Shown one piece after another: positions 24,249-35,128 of a stretch of 35,128 nt of DNA. Numbering within the stretch: position 1 is the first letter of the stretch; every line of letters starts with the position of its first letter. The DNA is from Acidimicrobiia bacterium (GTDB lineage: Bacteria; Actinomycetota; Acidimicrobiia; IMCC26256; PALSA-555), in assembly GCA_035948415.1 (NCBI GenBank), contig DASZJD010000028.1:1-35128 (forward strand), given 5' to 3'. Below the pieces are notes generated by a model. The model did no database searches. It saw only the letters and a program-made list of their open reading frames with translations, and was not told where the DNA came from. Both the position numbers and the translations under genes were made by a program.

Positions 24249-25418
24249 GTGGACCGCACGCCCGTGATCGTCGGGACCGGCCTGTCCGACTACCCGAAGG
24301 CGCCGCACCTGGATGGGGTGCAGCACCACGTCCAGGCCATGCAGCGCGCGCTCGCGGACAGCGGCGTCGAGAAGGCCGACATCGACGGCTACGTGAGCGC
24401 AGGCGGCGGCGGCCTGATGATCGACGACGCCGTCACCATGGCCGAGTACCTGCGGATCGACCACCGCTACATCGACGGCACGATGACCGGCGGTTCGTCG
24501 TTCGAGTTCCACGTCCAGCACCTGGCCGCCGCCATCCGGGAGGGCCTCTGCGACGTGGCGCTGGTGACGTACGGCTCCGACCAGCTCAGCCGCATGGGCC
24601 GACGCCTCGGCACCGGCGGGTTCCAACGGCCCGGGGCCCGCGTCGGCGGGCCGATCCAGTACGAGGCGGCCTACGGGAACTCCCTCGTCGGCTCCTACGC
24701 CATGCACGCGGCCCGGCACATGCACGAGTTCGGGACCACACCGGAGCAGCTGGCGGAGATCGCCGTCGGCGTCCGCGAGTACGCGACGCTCAACCCGCAC
24801 GCGATCTACCGCGACCCCATCACCGTCGACGACGTGGTGAACAGCCGGGTGATCGCCGACCCGCTCCACAAGCTCGACTGCTGCGCGATCACCGACGGGG
24901 GTGGCGCGTTCATCATCACCACCGCCGACCGGGCCAAGGACCTGCGTCAGCCCCCGGTGTACGTGCTCGGTGCCGCCGGGGGTGAGACCCACTGGAACGT
25001 CAGCCAGCAGCCCGACTTCACGAGCTGCGCCGGCGCCACCGCCGGCCCGGCCGCGTTCGCCCGGGCTGGGATCGGCCCCGATGACGTCGACATGCTGATG
25101 TTCTACGACTCGTTCACGATCACCTGCCTGATCCTGCTCGAGAGCATCGGGTTCGTGCCGAAGGGCGAGGGCGGGCCGTTCGTCGCCGCCGGCAACCTCA
25201 AGCGAGGCGGCCGGTGGCCGCTCAACACCGACGGCGGTGGCCTGTCGTCCTGCCACCCCGGGATGCGCGGCATCTTCCTGATCATCGAGGCCGCCCGCCA
25301 GCTGCGCGGGCAGGCGGGGGAGGCCCAGGTCCCGGACTGCGAGGTGGCCCTCTGCGCCGGGTCGGGGGGCTGGCTCAGCTGCATCGGGGTCGCCATCCTC
25401 GGCGCCGAGCACCCGTGA
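24249..25418 (+). CDS. Ltp-type (SCP2-thiolase-like) protein, probable side-chain aldolase or thiolase
   Basis: A 389-residue non-canonical thiolase of the SCP-x/Ltp group. It resembles Ltp2 of cholesterol degradation, which cleaves a 17-hydroxy steroid side-chain CoA by retro-aldol reaction. Family phrases are PVIVGTGLSDYPK, NSRVIADPLHKLDCCAITDGGGAFIITT, MLMFYDSFTITCLILLESIGF and LNTDGGGLSSCHPGMRG. The position of the classical nucleophilic Cys reads GGSSFEFHVQH, with no Cys, as expected for a lyase rather than a true thiolase. The GTG at 24249 follows GAGGGAG by 6 bases. The DUF35 partner gene starts 10 bp downstream, the usual arrangement for the Ltp2/DUF35 complex. Confidence 0.87.
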   Translation: MDRTPVIVGTGLSDYPKAPHLDGVQHHVQAMQRALADSGVEKADIDGYVSAGGGGLMIDDAVTMAEYLRIDHRYIDGTMTGGSSFEFHVQHLAAAIREGLCDVALVTYGSDQLSRMGRRLGTGGFQRPGARVGGPIQYEAAYGNSLVGSYAMHAARHMHEFGTTPEQLAEIAVGVREYATLNPHAIYRDPITVDDVVNSRVIADPLHKLDCCAITDGGGAFIITTADRAKDLRQPPVYVLGAAGGETHWNVSQQPDFTSCAGATAGPAAFARAGIGPDDVDMLMFYDSFTITCLILLESIGFVPKGEGGPFVAAGNLKRGGRWPLNTDGGGLSSCHPGMRGIFLIIEAARQLRGQAGEAQVPDCEVALCAGSGGWLSCIGVAILGAEHP

Positions 25419-25428
25419 GAGGAGCGCG

Positions 25429-25854
25429 ATGGGTGAGGTCCTGACGCCGGAGGAGTGGCAGAAGCCGCTGCCGGTGATCGACGAGGTGAACGGCGCCTAC
25501 TGGGCCGCCGCGGCCGAGGGCCGGCTCCTGATCCAGGAGTGCCCGCAGTGCCACCACCGGCAGTTCTACCCCCGCGCCCTCTGCACCCGCTGCGGCGGCG
25601 AGCCGGACTGGCTCGAGTGCCGCGGGCGCGGGACGGTGCACACGTTCACGGTCGTGCGCCAGATGGGCATGCGGCCGTTCCGGGACGAGCTGCCGTACGT
25701 CGTGGCGATGGTCGAGCTCGAGGAGGGGCCCATGATGATGGGCAACGTGACCGGCTGCGACCCCGACGCGGTCCGGATCGGCCTCCCGGTCGAGGCCTAC
25801 TTCGTGCGCGCCGCCGAGGACGTCGGGGTCGTCATGTGGCGGCCGCCCGCTTGA
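25429..25854 (+). CDS. DUF35 OB-fold zinc-ribbon protein, partner of the Ltp-type enzyme
   Basis: A 141-residue protein with a rubredoxin-like zinc ribbon (Cys38, Cys41, Cys52, Cys55 in CPQC...CTRC) followed by an OB-fold of about 75 residues, the standard DUF35 layout. DUF35 proteins bind acyl-CoA and form stable complexes with thiolase-like enzymes, as ChsH2 does with Ltp2 in cholesterol side-chain cleavage. The ATG at 25429 has GAGGAG shortly upstream. It is convergent with the thioesterase gene; a weak TGACG...CGTCA hairpin spans 25852-25867. Confidence 0.9.
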   Translation: MGEVLTPEEWQKPLPVIDEVNGAYWAAAAEGRLLIQECPQCHHRQFYPRALCTRCGGEPDWLECRGRGTVHTFTVVRQMGMRPFRDELPYVVAMVELEEGPMMMGNVTGCDPDAVRIGLPVEAYFVRAAEDVGVVMWRPPA

Positions 25855-25869
25855 CGGCGCGTCGTCACG

Positions 25870-26526
25870 TCAGCGGGGCCGGCTCCCGTCCCGCGGCGCG
25901 ATGAACACGATCGACGCCTCGGCGAGGAGCTCGCCGCCGCACGACGAGGTGGCGCGCACCCAGATCTTGCGTCCCTCGACCCGGTCGACGTGGGCCTCGT
26001 AGTCGATCCGTCGCTGCAGCGGCGTCGGCCGGATCATCCGCACGGTGAGCGTCCCCGTGTAGCCGGCCTGTCCCGACGCCACCTGGGCCGCCCCCATGAG
26101 GTCGTCGAACGCCGCCGCCACGAAGCCGCCGTGCACGTGCCCGATCGGTCCCTCGTACGCGGGCGTGTAGACGGCGCCGCCGCGGGTGCCGTCGTCGGTC
26201 ACCGTCCACTGCACCGGCGGGGCCAGCGGGTTGCTCCGCCCGCTGATGCCGCTGCGCTCGAGGAGGGCGCCCTGCGCCCCGGGCTGGGCCCCGAGCCCGC
26301 CGGAGGCGTGGAGGCTCGGGAAGGCGGCCAGGGTGTCGGCGAGCGCGCGCACCTTCTCGGTGGCGGTGTCGACCGCGGTCGGGTCGGCCGCGGCGCTGTC
26401 GAGGTGCGCGACCAGCTCGATCACCCGCTTCACCTCGCGGACCAGCCGATGCTTGCCGGCCCGGCGGTCGGTCTCGGGGGGATCGAACGCGACGTAGGTG
26501 CTGCGGGCGTCGGGCGGCAGGGTCAC
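25870..26526 (-). CDS. Hotdog-fold thioesterase (PaaI-like)
   Basis: A 218-residue protein whose C-terminal ~110 residues form a PaaI-type hotdog domain: GPIGHVHGGFVAAAFDDLMG with the characteristic HGG, then LTVRMIRPTPLQRRIDYEAHVDRVEGRKIWV. The first ~100 residues are helical and charged without a recognised domain. Predicted to hydrolyse acyl-CoA thioesters, perhaps rescuing CoA from dead-end intermediates. The GTG at 26526 starts it, 16 bp after the SDR gene, making it the last of the long minus-strand operon. Confidence 0.85.
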   Translation of the reverse strand: MTLPPDARSTYVAFDPPETDRRAGKHRLVREVKRVIELVAHLDSAAADPTAVDTATEKVRALADTLAAFPSLHASGGLGAQPGAQGALLERSGISGRSNPLAPPVQWTVTDDGTRGGAVYTPAYEGPIGHVHGGFVAAAFDDLMGAAQVASGQAGYTGTLTVRMIRPTPLQRRIDYEAHVDRVEGRKIWVRATSSCGGELLAEASIVFIAPRDGSRPR

Positions 26527-26542
26527 CGGCGCAGACTATGGG

Positions 26543-27313
26543 TCAGCCGGGACTCGAACCGGGCCCCCTCGGCCCCGGGACGCCCCGGAACTCGTAGCGC
26601 TCGGCGCCGCGGCCGGCGACGATCGTGCGCACGACGCCGGCCTCGTCGGCGGCGAGCAGCGCCGCCACCGCCTCGGCGACCTCGGCGGGATCGAGGATCG
26701 GCCGTCCCTCGTCGAGGATCCGCCGCTTCTGCTCCGGCGTGAGCAGCCCGGTGTCGACGCCCCCCGGGCAAATGGCCTGGAGGCGCACGCCGCGCGCCGC
26801 GAGCTGCGGCGCGGCGCTGCGCACGAAGCCGACGACGGCGTGCTTCGTCGCCGCGTACATCGGGTCCTGCTCGTAGGGGCCGAGCCCGGCCAGCGACGCC
26901 GTCGCCACGATGGCGCCCCCGCCGCCACCGGCGATGATCGGGGCGAGGGCGCGCACGCCGAGCAGCACCCCGTCGAGGTTCACGCCCCGCACGCGCTCGA
27001 GCCGGGTCCAGGGCACGTCGAGGACGTCGGTGGGCACGGCCGCCGTCAGCACCCCCGCGTTCAGGAGCGCGCCCACGACCCGTTCCTCGCGGCGGCCGAG
27101 CTCGTCGACGAGCCGGCCCCAGGCGGCCTCGTCGCTGACGTCCAGGGCCACGAACCTGCCGCCGACGTCGTCGGCGACCCCGCGGCCGGCCTCGTCGGCG
27201 ACGTCGCAGCACACGACGGCGCGGCCGTCGCGGGCCAGCCGCCGCGCCGAGGCGGCGCCGATCCCGGACGCGGCGCCGGTCACGACGACCACCGGCGCCG
27301 CCGACCCGCTCAG
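26543..27313 (-). CDS. Short-chain dehydrogenase/reductase, probable CTG start
   Basis: A 256-residue classical SDR with TGAASGIGA, LLNAG, Ser140 in ATASLAG and YAATK (Tyr153, Lys157). The N-terminus needs a few residues before strand 1 (SGSAAPVVVVTG). The only start that provides them is a CTG at 27313, which overlaps the stop of the small CxxC gene as CTGA; a GTG at 27292 would begin directly at strand 1. The end (GVPGPRGPGSSPG) is in a GC-rich stretch. Predicted NAD(P)-dependent oxidoreductase of unknown substrate. Confidence 0.83.
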   Translation of the reverse strand: MSGSAAPVVVVTGAASGIGAASARRLARDGRAVVCCDVADEAGRGVADDVGGRFVALDVSDEAAWGRLVDELGRREERVVGALLNAGVLTAAVPTDVLDVPWTRLERVRGVNLDGVLLGVRALAPIIAGGGGGAIVATASLAGLGPYEQDPMYAATKHAVVGFVRSAAPQLAARGVRLQAICPGGVDTGLLTPEQKRRILDEGRPILDPAEVAEAVAALLAADEAGVVRTIVAGRGAERYEFRGVPGPRGPGSSPG

Positions 27314-27570
27314 GCGGCCTCCCGCGGGTCGTCGAGCCGCACCGCGCGCACCGCCGGCTCGTGCTCGCGGAGGGCGTCGAGGAGCAGCCGGTCGAGCAGC
27401 GGTCGGGGCACCACGCACTCGGCGCAGTCGGCCGACTCGAGCTCGAGGCGCAACGACAGCTCGCCCGCGGCCCCGTCCCACCCGACCACGACGACCTGGG
27501 CGCCGTCGGGCCCGAGGAAGCGGGCGACGGCGGCGAGCCCGGCGGCGAGCCCGGGCGGCGCCGAGCTCAC
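27310..27570 (-). CDS. Small CxxC protein, NifU C-terminal-domain-like (86 aa)
   Basis: An 86-residue protein with LRLELESADCAECVVPRPLLDRLLLDALREHEPAVRAVRL. The strand-CxxC-helix-strand order (Cys49, Cys52) resembles the NifU C-terminal domain, which holds Fe-S clusters, but the likeness is limited and another thiol function is possible. It starts at GTG 27570 in a GTGA overlap and ends in a CTGA overlap, so it is fully embedded in the coupled operon. Its position between two SDRs, downstream of a selenoprotein, suggests a redox or cluster-related role (inference). Confidence 0.65.
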   Translation of the reverse strand: MSSAPPGLAAGLAAVARFLGPDGAQVVVVGWDGAAGELSLRLELESADCAECVVPRPLLDRLLLDALREHEPAVRAVRLDDPREAA

Positions 27571-28361
27571 GTCGTCTCCAGGCGGGGCCGGTTGCGGGCC
27601 AGGTGGGCGCCGTTGTCGGAGAGCACGAGCTGCCCGGTCACCCCCCGCCCGAGGTCGGAGGCCAAGGCCACGACGAGGCGGGCGAGGTCGTCGGGCTCGT
27701 TCATCCGTCCGAGCGGGATCGAGGTCACGAGCGCGGCGAGATAGTCGTCCGACAGCGCGTCGCGGGTGCTGGGGGTCAGGGTCGTGCCGGGCGCCACCGC
27801 GTTCACGCGCACGCCGTGCGGGCCGAGCTCGACCGCCAGGGTCTGCGAGAGGTGGTTGATGGCGGCCTTGGCCGCGCCGTAGGCGGCGAGGTCGAGGGCC
27901 GGGCGCGTGCTCTCACCCGAGCTGACGTTGAGGATGACCCCGCCGACCCGCGCGGCGACCATGGCCGCGCCCTCGGCCCGGCAGCACGCCGCGGTCACGA
28001 GGAGGTTCTGGGTCACGACCTCCGCGACGTAGCCCGGGTCCTGGTCGAGGAACGGGGCCGGGGCGAGCCCGGCCAGGCTCCCGACGTTGTTGACGGCGAC
28101 GTCGAGCCCGCCGAGCGCGGCGACGGTCGCCTCGACGGCGTCGGCGGCGGCGCCGTCGCGCCGGAGGTCGGCCTCCACGGCGGCGACCCGCGTGCCCTCG
28201 CGTCCGGCCTCGGCCGCGGCCGACGCCAGGGCCGCGGCGTCGCGGTCCACGAGCGCGACGTCGCACCCGGCGCGGGCCAGCCAGGACGCGACCGCCCGTC
28301 CGATGCCGGCGCCGGCGCCGGTGACGAGCGCGGCGCGGTCCGCCAGTCGCAGGTCGATCAC
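27567..28361 (-). CDS. Short-chain dehydrogenase/reductase
   Basis: A 264-residue classical SDR: TGAGAGIGRA, NNVGSLAG, Ser148 in NVSSGES and YGAAK (Tyr161, Lys165), ending with GVTGQLVLSDNGAHL. All catalytic residues are present. GTG at 28361 overlaps the upstream alcohol dehydrogenase stop (GTGA), and its own stop overlaps the next start. Predicted to oxidise or reduce a hydroxyl/ketone intermediate. Confidence 0.88.
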   Translation of the reverse strand: MIDLRLADRAALVTGAGAGIGRAVASWLARAGCDVALVDRDAAALASAAAEAGREGTRVAAVEADLRRDGAAADAVEATVAALGGLDVAVNNVGSLAGLAPAPFLDQDPGYVAEVVTQNLLVTAACCRAEGAAMVAARVGGVILNVSSGESTRPALDLAAYGAAKAAINHLSQTLAVELGPHGVRVNAVAPGTTLTPSTRDALSDDYLAALVTSIPLGRMNEPDDLARLVVALASDLGRGVTGQLVLSDNGAHLARNRPRLETT

Positions 28362-29296
28362 GGCTCGAGCACGACCTTGATCGCGCCCGAGCCCCGGTCG
28401 GCGGCGACGCGGAAGGCCTCGGCCGCGTCCTCGAGCGGGAAGCGGTGGGTCACGAGCGCGGCGACGATCTCCGGTTCCCGAGCCAGGAGCGCGGCGGCGT
28501 CGTCGAGGTCGCGCCCGCCCGGATGCCACCCGTACGTGTACGACCAGCGGAACTCGAGCTCCTTCATGAGCGCCGGGATCCCCGGCACCGGGACCGGGCT
28601 CCAGTGCGTGCTGAGGAGCAGGACGAGCCCGCCCGGCCGGCACAGCGACGCCGCGCGCGCGAGCGCGCTGTCGGTGCCGGCGGCCTCGACGACGACGTCG
28701 TACTCCTCGTCGCCGACGCCGGACGCGCCGAGCCGCTCGCCGGCCTCCTGCTGGTGGCGGTGCCGTGCCGCCAGCCCGATCGTGGTGACGCCGCGGCCGC
28801 GGGCCGCGGCCACCGCCGCCAGCCCGATGGCGCCGCCCCCGACGACCGCGACTCGAACGGCAGGGTCGACGGCGGCGAGCCGCAGCCCGTGCCCGGCGAC
28901 GGCGAGCGGCTCGACCAGGCAGCCGTCGGCGACCGGCACGCCCGCGGGCAGCGGCACGAGGGCGGTCGCGCCGACGAGGACGCGCTCCGCCATCCCGCCG
29001 TCGACCGCCACCCCGAGGGCTCGCTCGGCGCCGGTGCGGCAGCGGTGCGGGGCGCCGGCCCGGCACTGGTCGCAGGCGCCGCACGGCTGGCTGGGGTCGA
29101 TCGCGACCGCGGTGCCGTCCTCGAGCCGGCCCGCGAACTCGTGGCCCAGCGTGAACGGGAGCGGGCCGTGCTCGAGCAGGTGCAGGTCGCTGCCGCAGAT
29201 CCCGGCCGCGACGACGTCGACGCGGCGGCCGGGTCCCGCCGGCTCGGGCCGATCGACGACGGTGACGCCGTCGGGGGAGTCGCGGACGGCCCTCAC
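28358..29296 (-). CDS. Zinc-dependent alcohol dehydrogenase (MDR family)
   Basis: A 312-residue medium-chain dehydrogenase. Catalytic zinc ligands include Cys34 in GICGSD and His52-Glu53 in GHE; the structural zinc is held by Cys72, Cys75, Cys78 and Cys86. The Rossmann motif GGGAIG lies at ~153-158. It is shorter than the usual ~350 residues, with trimmed loops. The GTG at 29296 gives MRAVRDSPDGVTVVDRPEP and overlaps the stop of the UGSC selenoprotein gene (GTGA). Predicted NAD(P)-dependent alcohol oxidation. Confidence 0.88.
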   Translation of the reverse strand: MRAVRDSPDGVTVVDRPEPAGPGRRVDVVAAGICGSDLHLLEHGPLPFTLGHEFAGRLEDGTAVAIDPSQPCGACDQCRAGAPHRCRTGAERALGVAVDGGMAERVLVGATALVPLPAGVPVADGCLVEPLAVAGHGLRLAAVDPAVRVAVVGGGAIGLAAVAAARGRGVTTIGLAARHRHQQEAGERLGASGVGDEEYDVVVEAAGTDSALARAASLCRPGGLVLLLSTHWSPVPVPGIPALMKELEFRWSYTYGWHPGGRDLDDAAALLAREPEIVAALVTHRFPLEDAAEAFRVAADRGSGAIKVVLEP

Positions 29297-29826
29297 GGGT
29301 GACCGGTCAGGAGCCCGAGCACCGCCTCGACCGCCTCGTCGGCGCGGCTCGTGACGTCCGCGGCGGCGATCCCGCCGAGCGGGTGCGTGACCACCGCGAT
29401 GCGGGCGCTCGGCAGCCCGGACGCGGCCGCGACCTGGCGGGCGAGCGCCGCGAACGCGGTCGTGGCCACGAGGACGGTCGGGCGCCCGGCGGCTTCGAGC
29501 CGCACCAGGTCGTGGACACTCCACGACGTGCACGACCCTCAGTCGGCGGATCCGGTCACGACGACGTGCGCGGCCTCGAGCTGGCGCAGGATCTCCGGCT
29601 CGGCGGGCTCGGCCGCGGTCGCCTTGGCCGCGACGATGGCCACCTCGGCGCCGGTGCGGGCGGCGAGCCGCTCCGCGATGCCGGTCAGCAGGGCGCGGGC
29701 GTTCGGCTTCCCGTTGTCGAGCACCGCGATGGCCCGGCCGCTCAGGCTCGGCACCGCCGGCGCGGCGGCGGCCGGCGTCGGCGCCACCGCCCCCTCGGGG
29801 GAGAGCAGCTCGAGGGCGCGGGTCAT
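29293..29826 (-). CDS. UGSC-family selenoprotein (UGA read as selenocysteine)
   Basis: A 177-residue protein when the TGA at 29539-29541 is read as Sec. Around it the frame reads VVTGSAD-U-GSCTSWSVHD, exactly the UGSC motif that names this selenoprotein family (Sec96, Cys99). Before it are AIAVLDNGKPNARALL and an alpha/beta-type domain; after it PTVLVATTAFAALARQVAAASGLP and the conserved VVTHPLGGI. Both halves are in frame and share the same codon bias. The ATG at 29826 overlaps the upstream stop as ATGA, and the end overlaps the alcohol dehydrogenase start as GTGA. The biochemical function of the family is not established; a selenol/thiol redox role is likely. Gene callers that treat UGA as stop would split it into a 95-residue and a ~70-residue piece. 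Confidence 0.93.
29509..29541 (-). promoter_or_regulatory. UGA-Sec codon and SECIS-like hairpin of the UGSC gene
   Basis: After UGA (29541-29539, minus strand) a perfect seven-pair stem GTCGTGG/CCACGAC (29527-29521 with 29515-29509) closes a five-base loop AGTGT. The loop begins 19 nt after the UGA and contains GU, like bacterial SECIS elements recognised by SelB. Unlike the CMD gene's hairpin it has no bulged U. A competing pairing GGTCGTG/CACGACC is also possible. Confidence 0.75.
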
Positions 29827-30887
29827 GGCTCGACCGCCACCGTGACGCTCCTCGTCATGCCCCAGCTCGGGATCACGCAGGAGTGCTTGCCGGGGCCGCC
29901 GGCGACGAGGACCCGCACGTTGTCGGGATCGTCGGTCATCGGGAGGAGGGCGTCGTCGTCCTCGATGGCCGCCAGCCACGGCGCCCACGCCACCGCCTCG
30001 AAGGCGCGGCGGAGCTCGCCCCGCGGCCGCCGGGCTCGCTCGTACAGGAACGACTGCACGTCGCCCCGCGACCAGCCGTGCGCGGCGATGGTCGCCGCGT
30101 GCTCCGGGCCCAGCACGACGAAGAACTCGCCCTGGGAGATGCAGGCGTTGTTGGACCCGAGGGTCGCCATCACCGAGGCGGCCTTCGTCAGCAGCCGGAC
30201 GGGCTCGTCGCTCTCCATGTCGTGAACGTTGTGCGGGTTCTCCCCGCAGGCGACGGTCACCGCGCTGGCGGCGTCGACGCCGCGGCTGCGGTGGTACGCG
30301 GGCCACGGGCTGGCGGCGGCGTGCTCGGCGACGCAGTACGTGTACTTGCTCGGCTGGCCCTGCGTGGCGGCGTCGCCGGCGCCGGGTCGGGCCCCGCCGA
30401 CGTGCAGCAGGACGAAGCGCACGGCGCGGCCGACGGTGGCGTTGGCGCGGTGGCCGGGACCGAACGCGCCAACACCGGCGTTGAACCCGCCGCGCTCCAC
30501 CGCGTCCCCGTGCACGATCACGAGCGGCGCCACCGGGTGCGTCGTCGCCTGCACCCCCCGCAGGTTCACCTCGGGTCGCGTGAGGGCGCGGACGGCGGCC
30601 GCGACGACCGGCAGCACCGACGGCGGGCAGCCGGCCAGGACCGCGTTCACTGCGACCGTGCGCAGCGTCGCGGCGCCGTCGCGCGGCGGCACCACGCCGA
30701 GCAGCTCGTCGGGGTCCCCCGCGGCGGCGAGCATGCCCTCGACCCGCGCCCGGGTCGGCGCGACCACCGGCAGGCCGTCACCCCACCCGCGCGCGTCGAG
30801 CAGCCCCCACAGCGCCTCGGGCGACTCGTCCGCGACCTCGACCACCTCGTCGGGGTGAGCGGTGAGCGCGTGGTCCGGAAGTGCCAT
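29823..30887 (-). CDS. Cysteine-containing protein of unknown function, partner of the UGSC selenoprotein
   Basis: A 354-residue cytoplasmic protein that I do not recognise as a named enzyme. It starts with an acidic segment and LLDARGWGDGLPVVAPTRARVEGML. It has five cysteines (87, 185, 214, 249, 337) in motifs such as LAGCPPS, KYTYCVAEH, ACGENPHN, NNACISQGEF and KHSCVIPSWGM, plus several His and Asn residues that could form an active site or bind metal. No signal peptide or membrane segment. It is first in the long operon, preceded by TACACT and AGGGGATC, and overlaps the UGSC gene by four bases (ATGA), so the two are probably made in fixed ratio and may act as a complex (inference). Confidence 0.8.
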   Translation of the reverse strand: MALPDHALTAHPDEVVEVADESPEALWGLLDARGWGDGLPVVAPTRARVEGMLAAAGDPDELLGVVPPRDGAATLRTVAVNAVLAGCPPSVLPVVAAAVRALTRPEVNLRGVQATTHPVAPLVIVHGDAVERGGFNAGVGAFGPGHRANATVGRAVRFVLLHVGGARPGAGDAATQGQPSKYTYCVAEHAAASPWPAYHRSRGVDAASAVTVACGENPHNVHDMESDEPVRLLTKAASVMATLGSNNACISQGEFFVVLGPEHAATIAAHGWSRGDVQSFLYERARRPRGELRRAFEAVAWAPWLAAIEDDDALLPMTDDPDNVRVLVAGGPGKHSCVIPSWGMTRSVTVAVEP

Positions 30888-30955: not shown

Positions 30956-32047
30956 GTGACCAGCACCGTGCGGGCCGGCGTGTTCACCGGTGATTCGCGT
31001 CACGAGGTGCGGAGCTTCCCCGAGCCGGACCCGCCGCCCGGCGGCGCGGTGCTGCGCGTCGAGGCCTGCGGGCTGTGCGGGAGCGACCTGGCCCAGCACG
31101 AGGGCGGGGTCGGCGTCCCGGGCGAGCGGTTCCCCGTCGTGCCCGGGCACGAGATCGTCGGGCGGGTGGCGAAGCTCACCGACGCCGGGGCCTCGGCCTG
31201 GGGCCTCGCCGAGGGCGACCGCGTCTGCGTCGACGAGATCCTCCGCTGCGGGACGTGCTCGGCGTGCCGGGCCGGCGAGCCCGACTGCGTCGCCATGCAG
31301 GTCTACGGCTACACGATGGGCGTCGACGACGGGCCCGGGCTGTGGGGCGGCTACGGGGAGCTGATGGCGGTGCGGCCCGGCACGAACCTGCACCGGGTGC
31401 CCGACGACGTCCCCGCGGCGGAGCTGACGATGTTCGAGCCGCTCGCCAACGCCGTCCACTGGGTGGGCCGGGCCGGGGTGGCGCTCGGCGACACCGTCGT
31501 CGTCGAGGGGCCCGGCCACCAGGGCCTGGCCTGTCTCGTCGCCGCGCTCGCGGCGGGGGCGGCCCGCGTCGTCGTGACCGGAACCGGCGACGACGCCGTC
31601 CGCCTCGACGCCGCCCGCCACCTCGGCGCGGCGGCGACCGTCGACGTCGACGCCGAGGACCCGGTGACCCGGGTCGCCGAGCTGACCGACGGCCGGATGG
31701 CCGACGTCGTGATGGACCTCGCCGCGGTCGCGACCGCGACGGTCCCGCTGGCCCTGAAGCTGGCTCGGACCCGCGGCACGGTGCTGCTCGCCGGGCTCAA
31801 GCACTTCCGCCCCGTCGAGGGCCTGGTCTCGGACCTGATCGTCCTGCGCCAGCTGACCCTGGTCGGGGGAGCGGGATACACGCCGACGGCGATGGCGCGC
31901 GCGGTCGCCCTCCTCGTCTCGGGCGCGGTCGACCGCGGGCCCCTGGTGGGGGAGACCGTCACCCTCGACGCCCTCGACGAGGGCGTCGCCCTGCTCGCCC
32001 GCGCCGCCGACCACGACGCGGTGCACGTCAGCCTCGTGCATCCCTGA
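30956..32047 (+). CDS. Zinc-dependent alcohol dehydrogenase (MDR, threonine/sorbitol dehydrogenase-like)
   Basis: A 363-residue medium-chain dehydrogenase with catalytic zinc ligands Cys41 (LCGSD) and His65-Glu66 (GHE), structural zinc ligands Cys98, Cys101, Cys104 and Cys111, and a cofactor turn VVVEGPGHQGLACL in place of the usual GxGxxG. Normal length. The GTG at 30956 follows GGGGA by 7 bases. It diverges from the UGSC operon and is followed after 9 bp by an SDR, suggesting a two-step alcohol/hydroxyacyl oxidation unit. Confidence 0.9.
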   Translation: MTSTVRAGVFTGDSRHEVRSFPEPDPPPGGAVLRVEACGLCGSDLAQHEGGVGVPGERFPVVPGHEIVGRVAKLTDAGASAWGLAEGDRVCVDEILRCGTCSACRAGEPDCVAMQVYGYTMGVDDGPGLWGGYGELMAVRPGTNLHRVPDDVPAAELTMFEPLANAVHWVGRAGVALGDTVVVEGPGHQGLACLVAALAAGAARVVVTGTGDDAVRLDAARHLGAAATVDVDAEDPVTRVAELTDGRMADVVMDLAAVATATVPLALKLARTRGTVLLAGLKHFRPVEGLVSDLIVLRQLTLVGGAGYTPTAMARAVALLVSGAVDRGPLVGETVTLDALDEGVALLARAADHDAVHVSLVHP

Positions 32048-32056
32048 GGGGTGGGG

Positions 32057-32929
32057 GTGGGCGCGCTCGACGGCCGGGTGGTGGTGGTCACGGGCGCGGG
32101 TCGCGGCATGGGGCGCGAGCACGCCCGGCTCCTCGCCGCCGAGGGAGCGGCGCTCGTCGTGAACGACACCGGCGCCGAGCGGGACGGCACCGGCGGCGAC
32201 CCCGCCGTCGTCGAGGCGGTCGCGGCCGAGCTCGCGGCCCGGGGGGCGGCGGTGGTCGCCACCGCCGATGACGTCAGCACGATGGACGGCGCCGAGCGGA
32301 CCGTCGCCGCCGCGGTCGACGGGTGGGGCCGGCTCGACGCGCTCGTCAACAATGCCGGGATCCTGCGGGACCGGATGTTCGTGAACATGACCGAGGACGA
32401 CTGGGACGCGGTCGTGCGCGGCCATCTCCGCTCCACGTTCTGCACGACGCGGCGGGCGGCCGGGCACTGGCGCGACCGGTCGAAGGCCGGCGAGGAGGTC
32501 CGCGCCGCGGTCGTGAACGTCTCGTCGACCTCGGGGCTGCTCGGGTCGGTCGGCCAGACGAACTACGGAGCGGCCAAGGCCGGGGTCGCCGCCCTCACCG
32601 TCATCCTGGCGCAGGAGCTCGGCCGGTACGGGGTGCGGGTGAACGCCATCGTGCCGGTCGCCCGCACCCGCATGACCGAGGAGGTCGCGGGCATCGCCGA
32701 CGTGGTCCGCGCCCCCGCCGACCCGGCCGCCTTCGACGTCTACGACCCCGCCAACGTGTCGCCGGTGGTCGCCTGGCTCGTCAGCGAGGCCTGCCCCGCG
32801 ACCGGTCGGGTGCTGTACGTCCGGGGCGGGGAGGTCCGGGTGATGGACGGCTGGCACCACGGGCGGACGGTCGAGCGGGACGGCCGCTGGACCGTCCCCG
32901 CGCTCGGGGCGGCGCTCGGCGACCTGTGA
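32057..32929 (+). CDS. SDR, multifunctional-enzyme type (17-beta-HSD4-like)
   Basis: A 290-residue SDR with TGAGRGMGREHARLLAAEGA, VVNDTGA, LVNNAGILRDRMFVNMTEDDWD, Ser157 in NVSSTSGL and YGAAK (Tyr170, Lys174). The NDTG and NAGILRDRMF blocks resemble the dehydrogenase domain of peroxisomal MFE-2/17-beta-HSD4, which oxidises 3-hydroxyacyl-CoAs including bile-acid intermediates. GTG at 32057 has GAGGGG 5 bases upstream; a GTG at 32051 is too close to that site. It ends 105 bp before the transport genes. Confidence 0.87.
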   Translation: MGALDGRVVVVTGAGRGMGREHARLLAAEGAALVVNDTGAERDGTGGDPAVVEAVAAELAARGAAVVATADDVSTMDGAERTVAAAVDGWGRLDALVNNAGILRDRMFVNMTEDDWDAVVRGHLRSTFCTTRRAAGHWRDRSKAGEEVRAAVVNVSSTSGLLGSVGQTNYGAAKAGVAALTVILAQELGRYGVRVNAIVPVARTRMTEEVAGIADVVRAPADPAAFDVYDPANVSPVVAWLVSEACPATGRVLYVRGGEVRVMDGWHHGRTVERDGRWTVPALGAALGDL

Positions 32930-33034: not shown

Positions 33035-34381
33035 GTGAGACGTTTCCGGTGGACGGCCATCCTGACCGTCGTCGCGCTCGCCAGCGTCGGGAGCGCCACC
33101 GCCGCCGTGGCCGCCTCCAGCGGCGGCCGGGCCGCCGCCGGGCCGCCACCCACCGCCACCGAGGTCGGCGTCACCAGCAGCGAGATCCACATCGCCGTCG
33201 TCGCCGACGTCGACAACACCCTCCAGCCCGGGCTCTTCCGCGGCTCGGTCGCGGGGGTCCGGTCCTTCGCCAGCTACATCAACTCCCTCGGCGGGATCGG
33301 CGGGCGCAAGGTGGTGGTCGACTTCATCGACTCGCACCTCAGCAACAGCGAGGCCCGGAACGCCGTCATCCGGGCCTGCAGCCAGGACTTCGCCCTCGTC
33401 GGAACCTCGGCGCTGTTCCTGAACAACGTCGACGACCTGCTTTCCTGCAAGGACCAGAGCGGCCAGACGACCGGGCTGCCCGACATCCCGGTCGTGGCCA
33501 CCGAGATCGTCCAGCAGTGCTCGCCGACCTCGTTCCCGATCAACCCGCCCCAGATCGTCTGCGGGACCAGGGCCCAGCACCCGCAGACCTACCAGGCCAA
33601 CGCCGGCCGGTACTTCTACTACGCGAAGAAGTTCGGGAAGAACCTCCACGGCGTCTACCTCTACACGGGCGACCTCAAGAGCGCCCACGACGCCAACCAG
33701 GTGACGGGGACGGCGCTCCAGAACCTCGGGGTCAAGGCCGACCTGGCCACCTCGATCTCCGCGCTCGCGCCCCAGAGCGGCTACACGCCCGCGGCGCAGT
33801 CGATGAAGTCGAAGGGCTCGAACTTCGCCGAGGTCGAGCTCGCCTACAGCCAGACCGTGGACCTGCGGAAGGAGGCGGCGCTCCAGGGGGTCACCGACCC
33901 GAAGATCCTCTGGTCCTGCACCGTCCAGTGCTACAACCCGCAGTTCCTGTCCCAGGGCGGCGCCTCGGTCGAGGGCCAGCACATCTCGCTCGGCTTCCTG
34001 CCCTTCGAGGAACCGAAGGCGAACAAGGCCGTGGCCGCGTTCGACAAGTACACGCCCGCCGACGAGCGGGACGGCTTCGCCGCCGACGGCTTCGCCGCCG
34101 GGCTGGCGCTGCGCGACGCGGCGAACGCGGTCGTGAAGCAGAGCGGCACGAACGGCCTCACCCGGAAGGCCCTGCTCAGCGCGCTGAACAACCTCACCGC
34201 CTTCAACGGCGACGGGATGTTCGGCACCACGAACATCGGCGGCCGGGTCCCGTCGGACTGCTACATGATCGTCCAGGTGAAGAACGGGAAGTACGTGCGG
34301 GAGTTCCCGACGAAGCCCGGGACCTTGGACTGCACCAAGCGCAATGTCGTGAACTTCAAGCTCGATCTCGGAACTGGGTGA
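33035..34381 (+). CDS. ABC transporter substrate-binding protein (branched-chain amino acid/LivK type)
   Basis: A 448-residue exported protein. The start MRRFRWTAILTVVALASVG, continuing to AVAAS, is a Sec signal peptide with a likely cut near residue 27. There is no lipobox cysteine, so anchoring is unclear. The mature part is a type I periplasmic-binding fold: IHIAVVADVDN, FASYINSLGGIGGRKVVVDFIDS, and FNGDGMFGTTNIGGRVPSDCYMIVQVKNG near the end. Relatives bind amino acids, aromatic acids, amides and other small acids. AGGGGGG lies 6 bases before the GTG at 33035. It precedes the ATPase gene by 13 bp and is downstream of a KstR-like box, suggesting uptake of the catabolic substrate or a side product. 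Confidence 0.9.
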   Translation: MRRFRWTAILTVVALASVGSATAAVAASSGGRAAAGPPPTATEVGVTSSEIHIAVVADVDNTLQPGLFRGSVAGVRSFASYINSLGGIGGRKVVVDFIDSHLSNSEARNAVIRACSQDFALVGTSALFLNNVDDLLSCKDQSGQTTGLPDIPVVATEIVQQCSPTSFPINPPQIVCGTRAQHPQTYQANAGRYFYYAKKFGKNLHGVYLYTGDLKSAHDANQVTGTALQNLGVKADLATSISALAPQSGYTPAAQSMKSKGSNFAEVELAYSQTVDLRKEAALQGVTDPKILWSCTVQCYNPQFLSQGGASVEGQHISLGFLPFEEPKANKAVAAFDKYTPADERDGFAADGFAAGLALRDAANAVVKQSGTNGLTRKALLSALNNLTAFNGDGMFGTTNIGGRVPSDCYMIVQVKNGKYVREFPTKPGTLDCTKRNVVNFKLDLGTG

Positions 34382-34394
34382 TCCGCACGGCGTC

Positions 34395-35128
34395 ATGAGC
34401 CTCCTGTCCTGCCACGAGGTGTCGGTCAGCTTCGGGGGCCTGAAGGCGCTCGACGAGGTGACGCTCGACGTCCCGCCGGGCCAGGTCACGGGCCTCATCG
34501 GACCGAACGGGGCCGGCAAGACCACGCTCTTCAACGCCATCTGCGGGCTCCAGCCCCTGAACGAGGGCGGCATCCAGCTCGACGGGCGTGAGATCAGCAC
34601 CGAGCGGCCGCACAAGCGGGCCCGGCTCGGCATCGCGCGGACGTTCCAACGACTCGAGACCTTCGGCACCCTGTCGGTGCGCGACAACGTCCTCGTCGCC
34701 GCCGAGATGCGGCGAGGGTGGTCGCGGGAGCGGTTCCGGCCCGGGGCGCTGACCGACCAGCTCGTCGAGCGCGTCGGCCTGGCCTCGGTCGCCGGGGAGC
34801 GGGTCGACCAGCTCCCGACCGGGACCCAGCGGCTCGTCGAGGTGGCCCGGGCCCTCGCCACCAAGCCCCGCGTGCTGCTGCTCGACGAGCCGTCGGCGGG
34901 CCTCAACGAGGAGGAGACGACGGAGCTGGCGGCGCTGCTCCGCGAGCTGGCCGCCACCGGCCTCGGCATCCTCCTCGTCGAGCACGACATGGGCCTGGTG
35001 ATGAGCGCCTCCGACGGCATCCACGTCCTCGACTTCGGGCGGATCATCGCCGTCGGGACCCCCGAGGACGTGCAAGCCGACCCGCTCGTGCGCGCCGCCT
35101 ACCTCGGCGAGGGGGAGGCCGAGGAGGA
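34395..35128 (+). CDS. livG: ABC transporter ATP-binding protein, LivG type (3' partial)
   Basis: At least 244 codons, open to the window end. Walker A is GPNGAGKTT (36-44), the Q-loop lies in ARTFQRL, the signature reads LPTGTQRLVEVARAL (140-154) in place of LSGGQ, Walker B is LLLDEP (161-166), and His197 is the switch His. The LPTG-type signature and RTFQ are normal for the LivG branch. It energises uptake with membrane subunits that are not in the window. The start ATG at 34395 is 13 bp after the binding protein. The end EGEAEEE may lead to a fused second ATPase or simply a short tail. Confidence 0.9.
   Translation, partial: MSLLSCHEVSVSFGGLKALDEVTLDVPPGQVTGLIGPNGAGKTTLFNAICGLQPLNEGGIQLDGREISTERPHKRARLGIARTFQRLETFGTLSVRDNVLVAAEMRRGWSRERFRPGALTDQLVERVGLASVAGERVDQLPTGTQRLVEVARALATKPRVLLLDEPSAGLNEEETTELAALLRELAATGLGILLVEHDMGLVMSASDGIHVLDFGRIIAVGTPEDVQADPLVRAAYLGEGEAEE

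Follow-up and report, generated by a model that had tools for sequence, protein, structure and literature searches.

What does a selenoprotein family that has stood without a function for some 18 years do, and with which partner does it work? The question is raised by a 35,128-nucleotide stretch of DNA from an Acidimicrobiia bacterium (contig DASZJD010000028.1; the whole stretch is here called the window), where a minus-strand operon opens with a gene for a 354-residue protein, here named P2, followed by the gene for a UGSC selenoprotein. UGSC is among the most abundant natural bacterial selenoprotein families (255 sequences in the GOS data), and several freshwater samples contain more of it than of any other (PMC2398784). 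NCBIfam, Pfam and the selenoproteome literature assign it no function, and the UGSC literature does not describe P2 as an obligate partner beyond an unnamed 'Unknown_1' (P2 or another protein) fused to UGSC in the GOS data (PMC2398784). The original prediction for this locus had placed P2 first in the operon and overlapping UGSC by ATGA. Its frames and coordinates were confirmed: the P2 stop and the UGSC start share ATGA, and the gene upstream of P2 (from 30956, plus strand) is divergent. It had also proposed that UGSC is coupled to this unrecognised protein, and a wider survey bears this out.

We searched 84,980 species genomes for P2 and found it at 65 loci in Actinomycetota, Rokuibacteriota, Chloroflexota, Pseudomonadota, Binatia, Acidobacteriota and other groups. 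UGSC lay within 300 nt of 73 of the 86 P2 domain hits, and the hits lacking an adjacent UGSC mostly lay at contig ends, were fragments with a broken frame or represented a second copy of P2. In the reverse direction, counting UGSC only above its cut-off in 296 Actinobacteriota genomes, the neighbourhood analysis suggested by the original prediction recovered P2 in every genome with UGSC (22/22) and next to 33 of 36 UGSC loci, in either order. All 18 UGSC records in a plasmid collection carry P2. At 16 loci the two lie in one frame whose sole TGA is the selenocysteine (Sec) UGA, one of them in reverse order, and in Chloroflexota no stop codon interrupts the open reading frames (ORFs) between the Sec codon and P2. 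A mirror-tree comparison of 62 paralogous pairs from a single genome, the Chloroflexi bacterium NC_groundwater_644 (hereafter G469), gave r=0.885 against a permuted maximum of 0.11. Because the two adjoin, are fused in both orders, occur together and co-evolve, P2 is almost certainly a near-obligate partner of UGSC. The two are not homologous to each other, a relationship that hhalign rejected.

The window's own genome holds three UGSC genes, each beside P2; the further pairs are at C55:48369-49918 and, in reverse gene order, at C84:15479-17117. Tandem or duplicated P2 genes, without UGSC on the same contig, were seen at two loci (L159, in genome G365, and L042) and may represent a heterodimeric or diverged form. 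A contig labelled Bifidobacterium breve (L013) carries UGSC, P2 and mini-protein genes resembling those of Acidimicrobiia and is probably mis-binned.

The window's UGSC passes the Pfam family PF24696 (151.9 bits against a cut-off of 25, E 2.5e-44) and barely passes NCBIfam NF041046 (125.1 bits against 125). Its U-G-S-C motif occupies residues 95-98, and Cys98 is invariant among 41 family sequences; across 73 members the Sec position is encoded by TGA in 67 and is Cys in 6. The window's genome carries, on the same contig, a tRNA-Sec (66.7 bits; ARAGORN SeC, anticodon tca) and SelB. An Rfam scan of the window matched no Sec insertion sequence (SECIS) family, so the hairpin following the UGA, GUCGUGGA-GUG-UCCACGAC, was tested by codon-aware shuffles. 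On average 7.77 of its 8 pairs form in 65 distinct Sec sequences; 500 shuffles of synonymous codons averaged 4.96 pairs and never exceeded 5.6. Pair 20-26 is broken in all six Cys homologues, 59 of 65 Sec genes use AGT for the Ser but 5 of 6 Cys genes use AGC, and a Trp-to-Cys codon change has its compensating change on the opposite arm. Conservation of this hairpin thus exceeds chance, and with tRNA-Sec, SelB and a SECIS-type element at hand the window's UGA is predicted to be decoded as Sec.

The chemistry suggested for this Sec comes from a remote relationship. GRDB-family sequences with Sec-containing C-termini were gathered from related genomes and aligned, and hhalign matched the UGSC alignment to them with a probability of 97.7% (E 1.8e-12, 94 columns), placing Sec on Sec and extending through LE..GIP to the HPLG(G) motif; four control comparisons of presumably unrelated families scored 0.05-2.9%. 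By these profiles UGSC is a remote homologue in the GrdB/PrdB superfamily, an assignment that is new here. GrdB- and PrdB-type enzymes cleave carbon bonds via a Se-C intermediate and a selenenylsulfide (reviewed in PMC10298544). Sequence searches of the PDB with UGSC or GRDB returned nothing significant. The operons around these GRDB genes are reductase operons with GrdG-, GrdC- and GrdA-like genes, and many genomes of the window's class (L085-L104) carry GRDB homologues, both short UPxC PrdB-like selenoproteins and full sarcosine/glycine-reductase-like operons.

UGSC-P2 shares several features with D-proline reductase (PrdB/PrdA) and the glycine/sarcosine/betaine reductases (GrdB/F/H; PF07355/TIGR01918): a homologous Sec domain with aligned Sec, the UxxC common to the short PrdB-like set and UGSC, a subunit dedicated as its partner, the presence of thioredoxin genes in some operons and, putatively, a reductive role on small solutes. 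It differs from them in that UGSC is shorter (~170 residues) and lacks the N-terminal GrdB domain, in that no GrdA or GrdC genes were seen beside the window's pair, and in that UGSC also occurs in aerobes and, as a Cys form, in haloarchaea. P2 is moreover not homologous to the pyruvoyl subunit: tried as a relative of GrdE/GrdG/PrdA, it gave an hhalign probability of 0.1% with the GrdG-like proteins.

P2 has no domain that can be named, as had been noted before: no Pfam or NCBIfam model matched it at E<=0.1, 51 family members gave no meaningful Pfam match, a sequence search of the PDB returned nothing, and its relatives on plasmids are annotated by NCBI as 'hypothetical protein'. The original prediction had seen conserved-looking motifs around its five cysteines (87, 185, 214, 249 and 337, the only ones in the protein), and conservation mapping upholds this for two of them. 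C87 is kept in 95% of loci and 98% of G469 paralogues and C185 in 82% and 64%, whereas C214, C249 and C337 are minority residues, so that five cysteines are not a signature of the family and P2 was rejected as a five-cysteine thiol catalyst. Only nine sequences, all from the window's own subclade, have both C214 and C337, which perhaps form a disulfide or bind a metal locally there. The positions conserved most strongly are D37-G38-x-P40, G86, G127, N149, R154, E188 and W195, and N81 joins D37, N149, R154, E188 and W195 among the most conserved non-cysteine polar residues, a pattern that suggests a polar pocket and not a thiol relay. An AlphaFold2 model (pLDDT 90.9, pTM 0.91) led Foldseek to class I fumarases and cyclic amide hydrolases (Toblerone fold) as weak first hits (E 1.6e-3 to 1e-2, TM 0.2-0.28), and VIA-align gave fragments with Z up to 4.6, below significance. 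Neither group shows sequence similarity to P2, and the modelled fold is without a clear relative at the sensitivity used. Class I fumarases hold a 4Fe-4S cluster with three cysteines. P2 has no such conserved set, the third cysteine missing in most members, and its fold match is weak, so that a [4Fe-4S] class I fumarase relative, considered here, seems unlikely.

The genomic surroundings of the pair would fit reduction and import. On a plasmid of Arthrobacter sp. ERGS1:01, trxB-trxA-P2-UGSC lies downstream of ABC importer genes, and the CxxC motifs of both the thioredoxin and its reductase were confirmed in sequence. Roseovarius has P2-UGSC-trxB with a TRAP transporter and CaiB, Variovorax SRS16 has TctC-trxB-TctC-SDR-P2-UGSC, and in Amycolatopsis thioredoxin and thioredoxin reductase lie five to six genes away. 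In haloarchaea the Cys-form UGSC stands beside TAXI or TctC receptors. Among 125 neighbour proteins from loci other than those of G469, TctC was commonest (11), followed by SDR, amidohydrolase and acyl-CoA dehydrogenase; in G469 SBP_bac_5 made up 40 of 77 neighbours and lay within 1.5 kb of 63 of 86 pairs. This receptor co-localisation would suit an enzyme that handles solutes soon after import, but TctC and the solute-binding families are abundant in any case. A CxxC mini-protein recurs near about ten UGSC-P2 loci, and in Arthrobacter (L223 7982-8797) its domain is fused to the UGSC C-terminus (BLASTP 1e-5; profile 81 bits). Against the NifU-like family PF01106 its best member reached 15.6 bits (cut-off 27) and the window's protein had no match; it may act as a dithiol relay.

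To what was computed (pairing and fusion of the two, their co-evolution, the use of Sec, the homology to GRDB, operons with trx genes and receptor co-localisation) we add an inferred chemistry, P2 role and substrate. A thioredoxin-linked reductive selenol enzyme, in which P2 substitutes for the pyruvoyl subunit and the substrates are imported small molecules, appears to us somewhat probable. P2 and UGSC would be its two subunits, sometimes one fused chain. P2 would bind and polarise the imported solute and set specificity; it would stand where GrdB/PrdB-type enzymes have their pyruvoyl subunit (GrdE/PrdA), with which it shares no ancestry. The UGSC selenolate would then attack either an activated substrate carbon, cleaving reductively in the manner of proline and glycine reductase, or some other electrophilic centre; Cys98, three residues after Sec, would release the reduced product by forming a Se-S bond, and thioredoxin with thioredoxin reductase would reduce that bond and recycle the enzyme. 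The two-component selenol enzyme of the original prediction is therein retained as the best reading, with its chemistry conditional.

Several observations weigh against such a reductase. 41 UGSC members searched gave no match to PF07355 at E<=1, and Foldseek found nothing for P2 below 1e-3 and no convincing fold relative. Aerobic hosts are unusual for GrdB/PrdB-type chemistry. Adjacency to trxA or trxB was found at only about four to five loci, and P2 co-evolves weakly with the solute-binding proteins (r=0.18). Single-ORF UGSC-P2 fusions in Sporomusa termitida (L216 8320-10041) and Vibrio europaeus (L218 7374-9056), which adjoin aconitase X and DUF126 genes, have Met at the Sec/Cys position (DMGTS), and show that some members work without a chalcogen, the chemistry having been abandoned. 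These fusions are consistent with a non-redox alternative, a selenol/thiol enzyme resembling Asp/Glu racemases (a racemase, maleate-type isomerase or decarboxylase) with Sec as nucleophile or base and P2 as a carboxylate-binding domain like class I fumarases or Toblerone proteins. One UGSC member weakly matches Asp_Glu_race (E 0.03), and the best, if weak, Foldseek matches of P2 are a class I fumarase (1.6e-3) and cyclic amide hydrolases. Those fold matches, with TM 0.2-0.28 and VIA Z below 5, are however not significant, and the invariant second Cys of UxxC together with dedicated trxA/trxB operons implies redox cycling, so we consider this alternative improbable.

We judge equally unlikely that UGSC is a thioredoxin-fold thiol:disulfide oxidoreductase or peroxidase, with P2 as its module for a protein or small-molecule substrate. 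UxxC is a classic redox motif and the trxA/trxB neighbours would suit such an enzyme, and a thioredoxin-like reading has been proposed in the selenoproteome literature (PMC2398784). Yet none of 41 UGSC members matches a Trx-family Pfam model, the alignment with GRDB puts Sec on Sec and runs onward through LE..GIP and HPLGG, and the context is one of catabolism and import, not of oxidative-stress genes; contrary to that proposal, UGSC is not evidently thioredoxin-like. That P2 and UGSC are merely neighbours with separate functions in catabolic islands would agree with their widely varying contexts and with the P2 tandem that lacks UGSC (L159), but is very hard to reconcile with in-frame fusions in two orders, with the adjacency in Actinobacteriota and on plasmids, and with the mirror-tree correlation among paralogues of one genome.

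UGSC is most strongly expanded in G469, a metagenome-assembled genome of 5.0 Mb (loci L021, L043, L047, L065 and L173-L212). It yielded 208 first-look UGSC candidates. Every one of the 150 that were scored proved to be UGSC, giving at least 150 genes, with an in-frame TGA in about 146 of those scored. In 674 kb sampled we counted 90 UGSC genes (87 with TGA) and 89 P2 genes, forming 86 pairs, 65 of them in one TGA-read frame. Relatives of G469 have UGSC in 43 of 148 genomes, with up to at least 22 copies. Caution is due because G469 is metagenome-assembled. SelB is present in it and the hairpin signal is moderate (mean z -1.0); no tRNA-Sec scored above threshold, the best match being a tRNA-Ser. 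Sec use in this genome is accordingly predicted from SelB, the UGA codons and the moderate hairpin signal.

In the window itself, the operon continues beyond UGSC, whose end overlaps the alcohol dehydrogenase gene through GTGA (29293-29296). The genes reported earlier as following it, an alcohol dehydrogenase, two SDRs, a CxxC mini-protein and a thioesterase, were found as described. Of these, the mini-protein recurs with UGSC-P2 elsewhere; the others belong to a local operon, conserved in a close relative (L001), and not to the general UGSC-P2 module. ORFs in this very GC-rich DNA were called with a codon-usage model. Positions 1354-23174 of the window hold genes for acyl-CoA ligase(s), a cytochrome P450, a nitronate monooxygenase-like protein and a Dyp-type peroxidase, and look like a larger catabolic region.

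Table 1. Features of the UGSC-P2 region, in window coordinates.
Feature	Position	Strand	Basis or remark
P2, 354-residue partner protein, family without a name	29823-30887	-	Translated ORF, UGSC partner
UGSC selenoprotein (PF24696/NF041046), ~177 residues, putative resolving Cys98	29293-29826	-	Frame read through TGA
UGA (predicted Sec) codon of UGSC	29539-29541	-	tRNA-Sec and SelB in same genome
SECIS-type hairpin GUCGUGGA-GUG-UCCACGAC, just downstream of UGA	29509-29527	-	Conserved stem, synonymous-site selection
Zinc-dependent alcohol dehydrogenase (MDR), local operon	28358-29296	-	Order kept in L001
SDR oxidoreductase, local operon	27567-28361	-	Order kept in L001
CxxC mini-protein, 86 residues, weakly NifU-like, recurrent third component	27310-27570	-	
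SDR oxidoreductase, local operon	26543-27292	-	Order kept in L001
4HBT-like thioesterase, local operon	25870-26526	-	Sub-threshold Pfam match
Zinc-dependent alcohol dehydrogenase, divergent	30956-32047	+	
SDR (NF005861), divergent	32051-32929	+	
Peripla_BP_6 solute-binding protein of ABC importer, candidate substrate receptor	33035-34381	+	
ABC transporter ATPase, continues past window end	34395-35126	+	Walker A GPNGAGKTT in translation
ChsH2-like zinc ribbon/OB-fold protein, convergent neighbour	25429-25854	+	
SCP-x-like thiolase (PRK06158), convergent neighbour	24249-25418	+	

The GRDB homology, the trx operons in cultured strains, the solute-binding neighbours, the mini-protein fusion and the genome with at least 150 copies are new here. 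With a universal partner, homology to a family of known chemistry, cultured hosts of trx operons and candidate receptors, the function of UGSC becomes directly testable. We tentatively raise the possibility, which we hold to be rather doubtful as a whole, that UGSC-P2 makes up an extensive and so far unrecognised class of reductive selenoenzymes, driven by thioredoxin and varied in substrate like the reductive dehalogenases, often co-localised with receptors and exceeding 150 genes in some uncultured Chloroflexota, the largest selenoproteome known from any organism. The published bacterial maximum is 39 selenoproteins (PMC5029168, PMC9312934), a limit that at least 150 UGSC genes in one genome would overturn. 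Such an expansion would mean that selenium chemistry is strongly selected for in uncultured degraders of organic matter.

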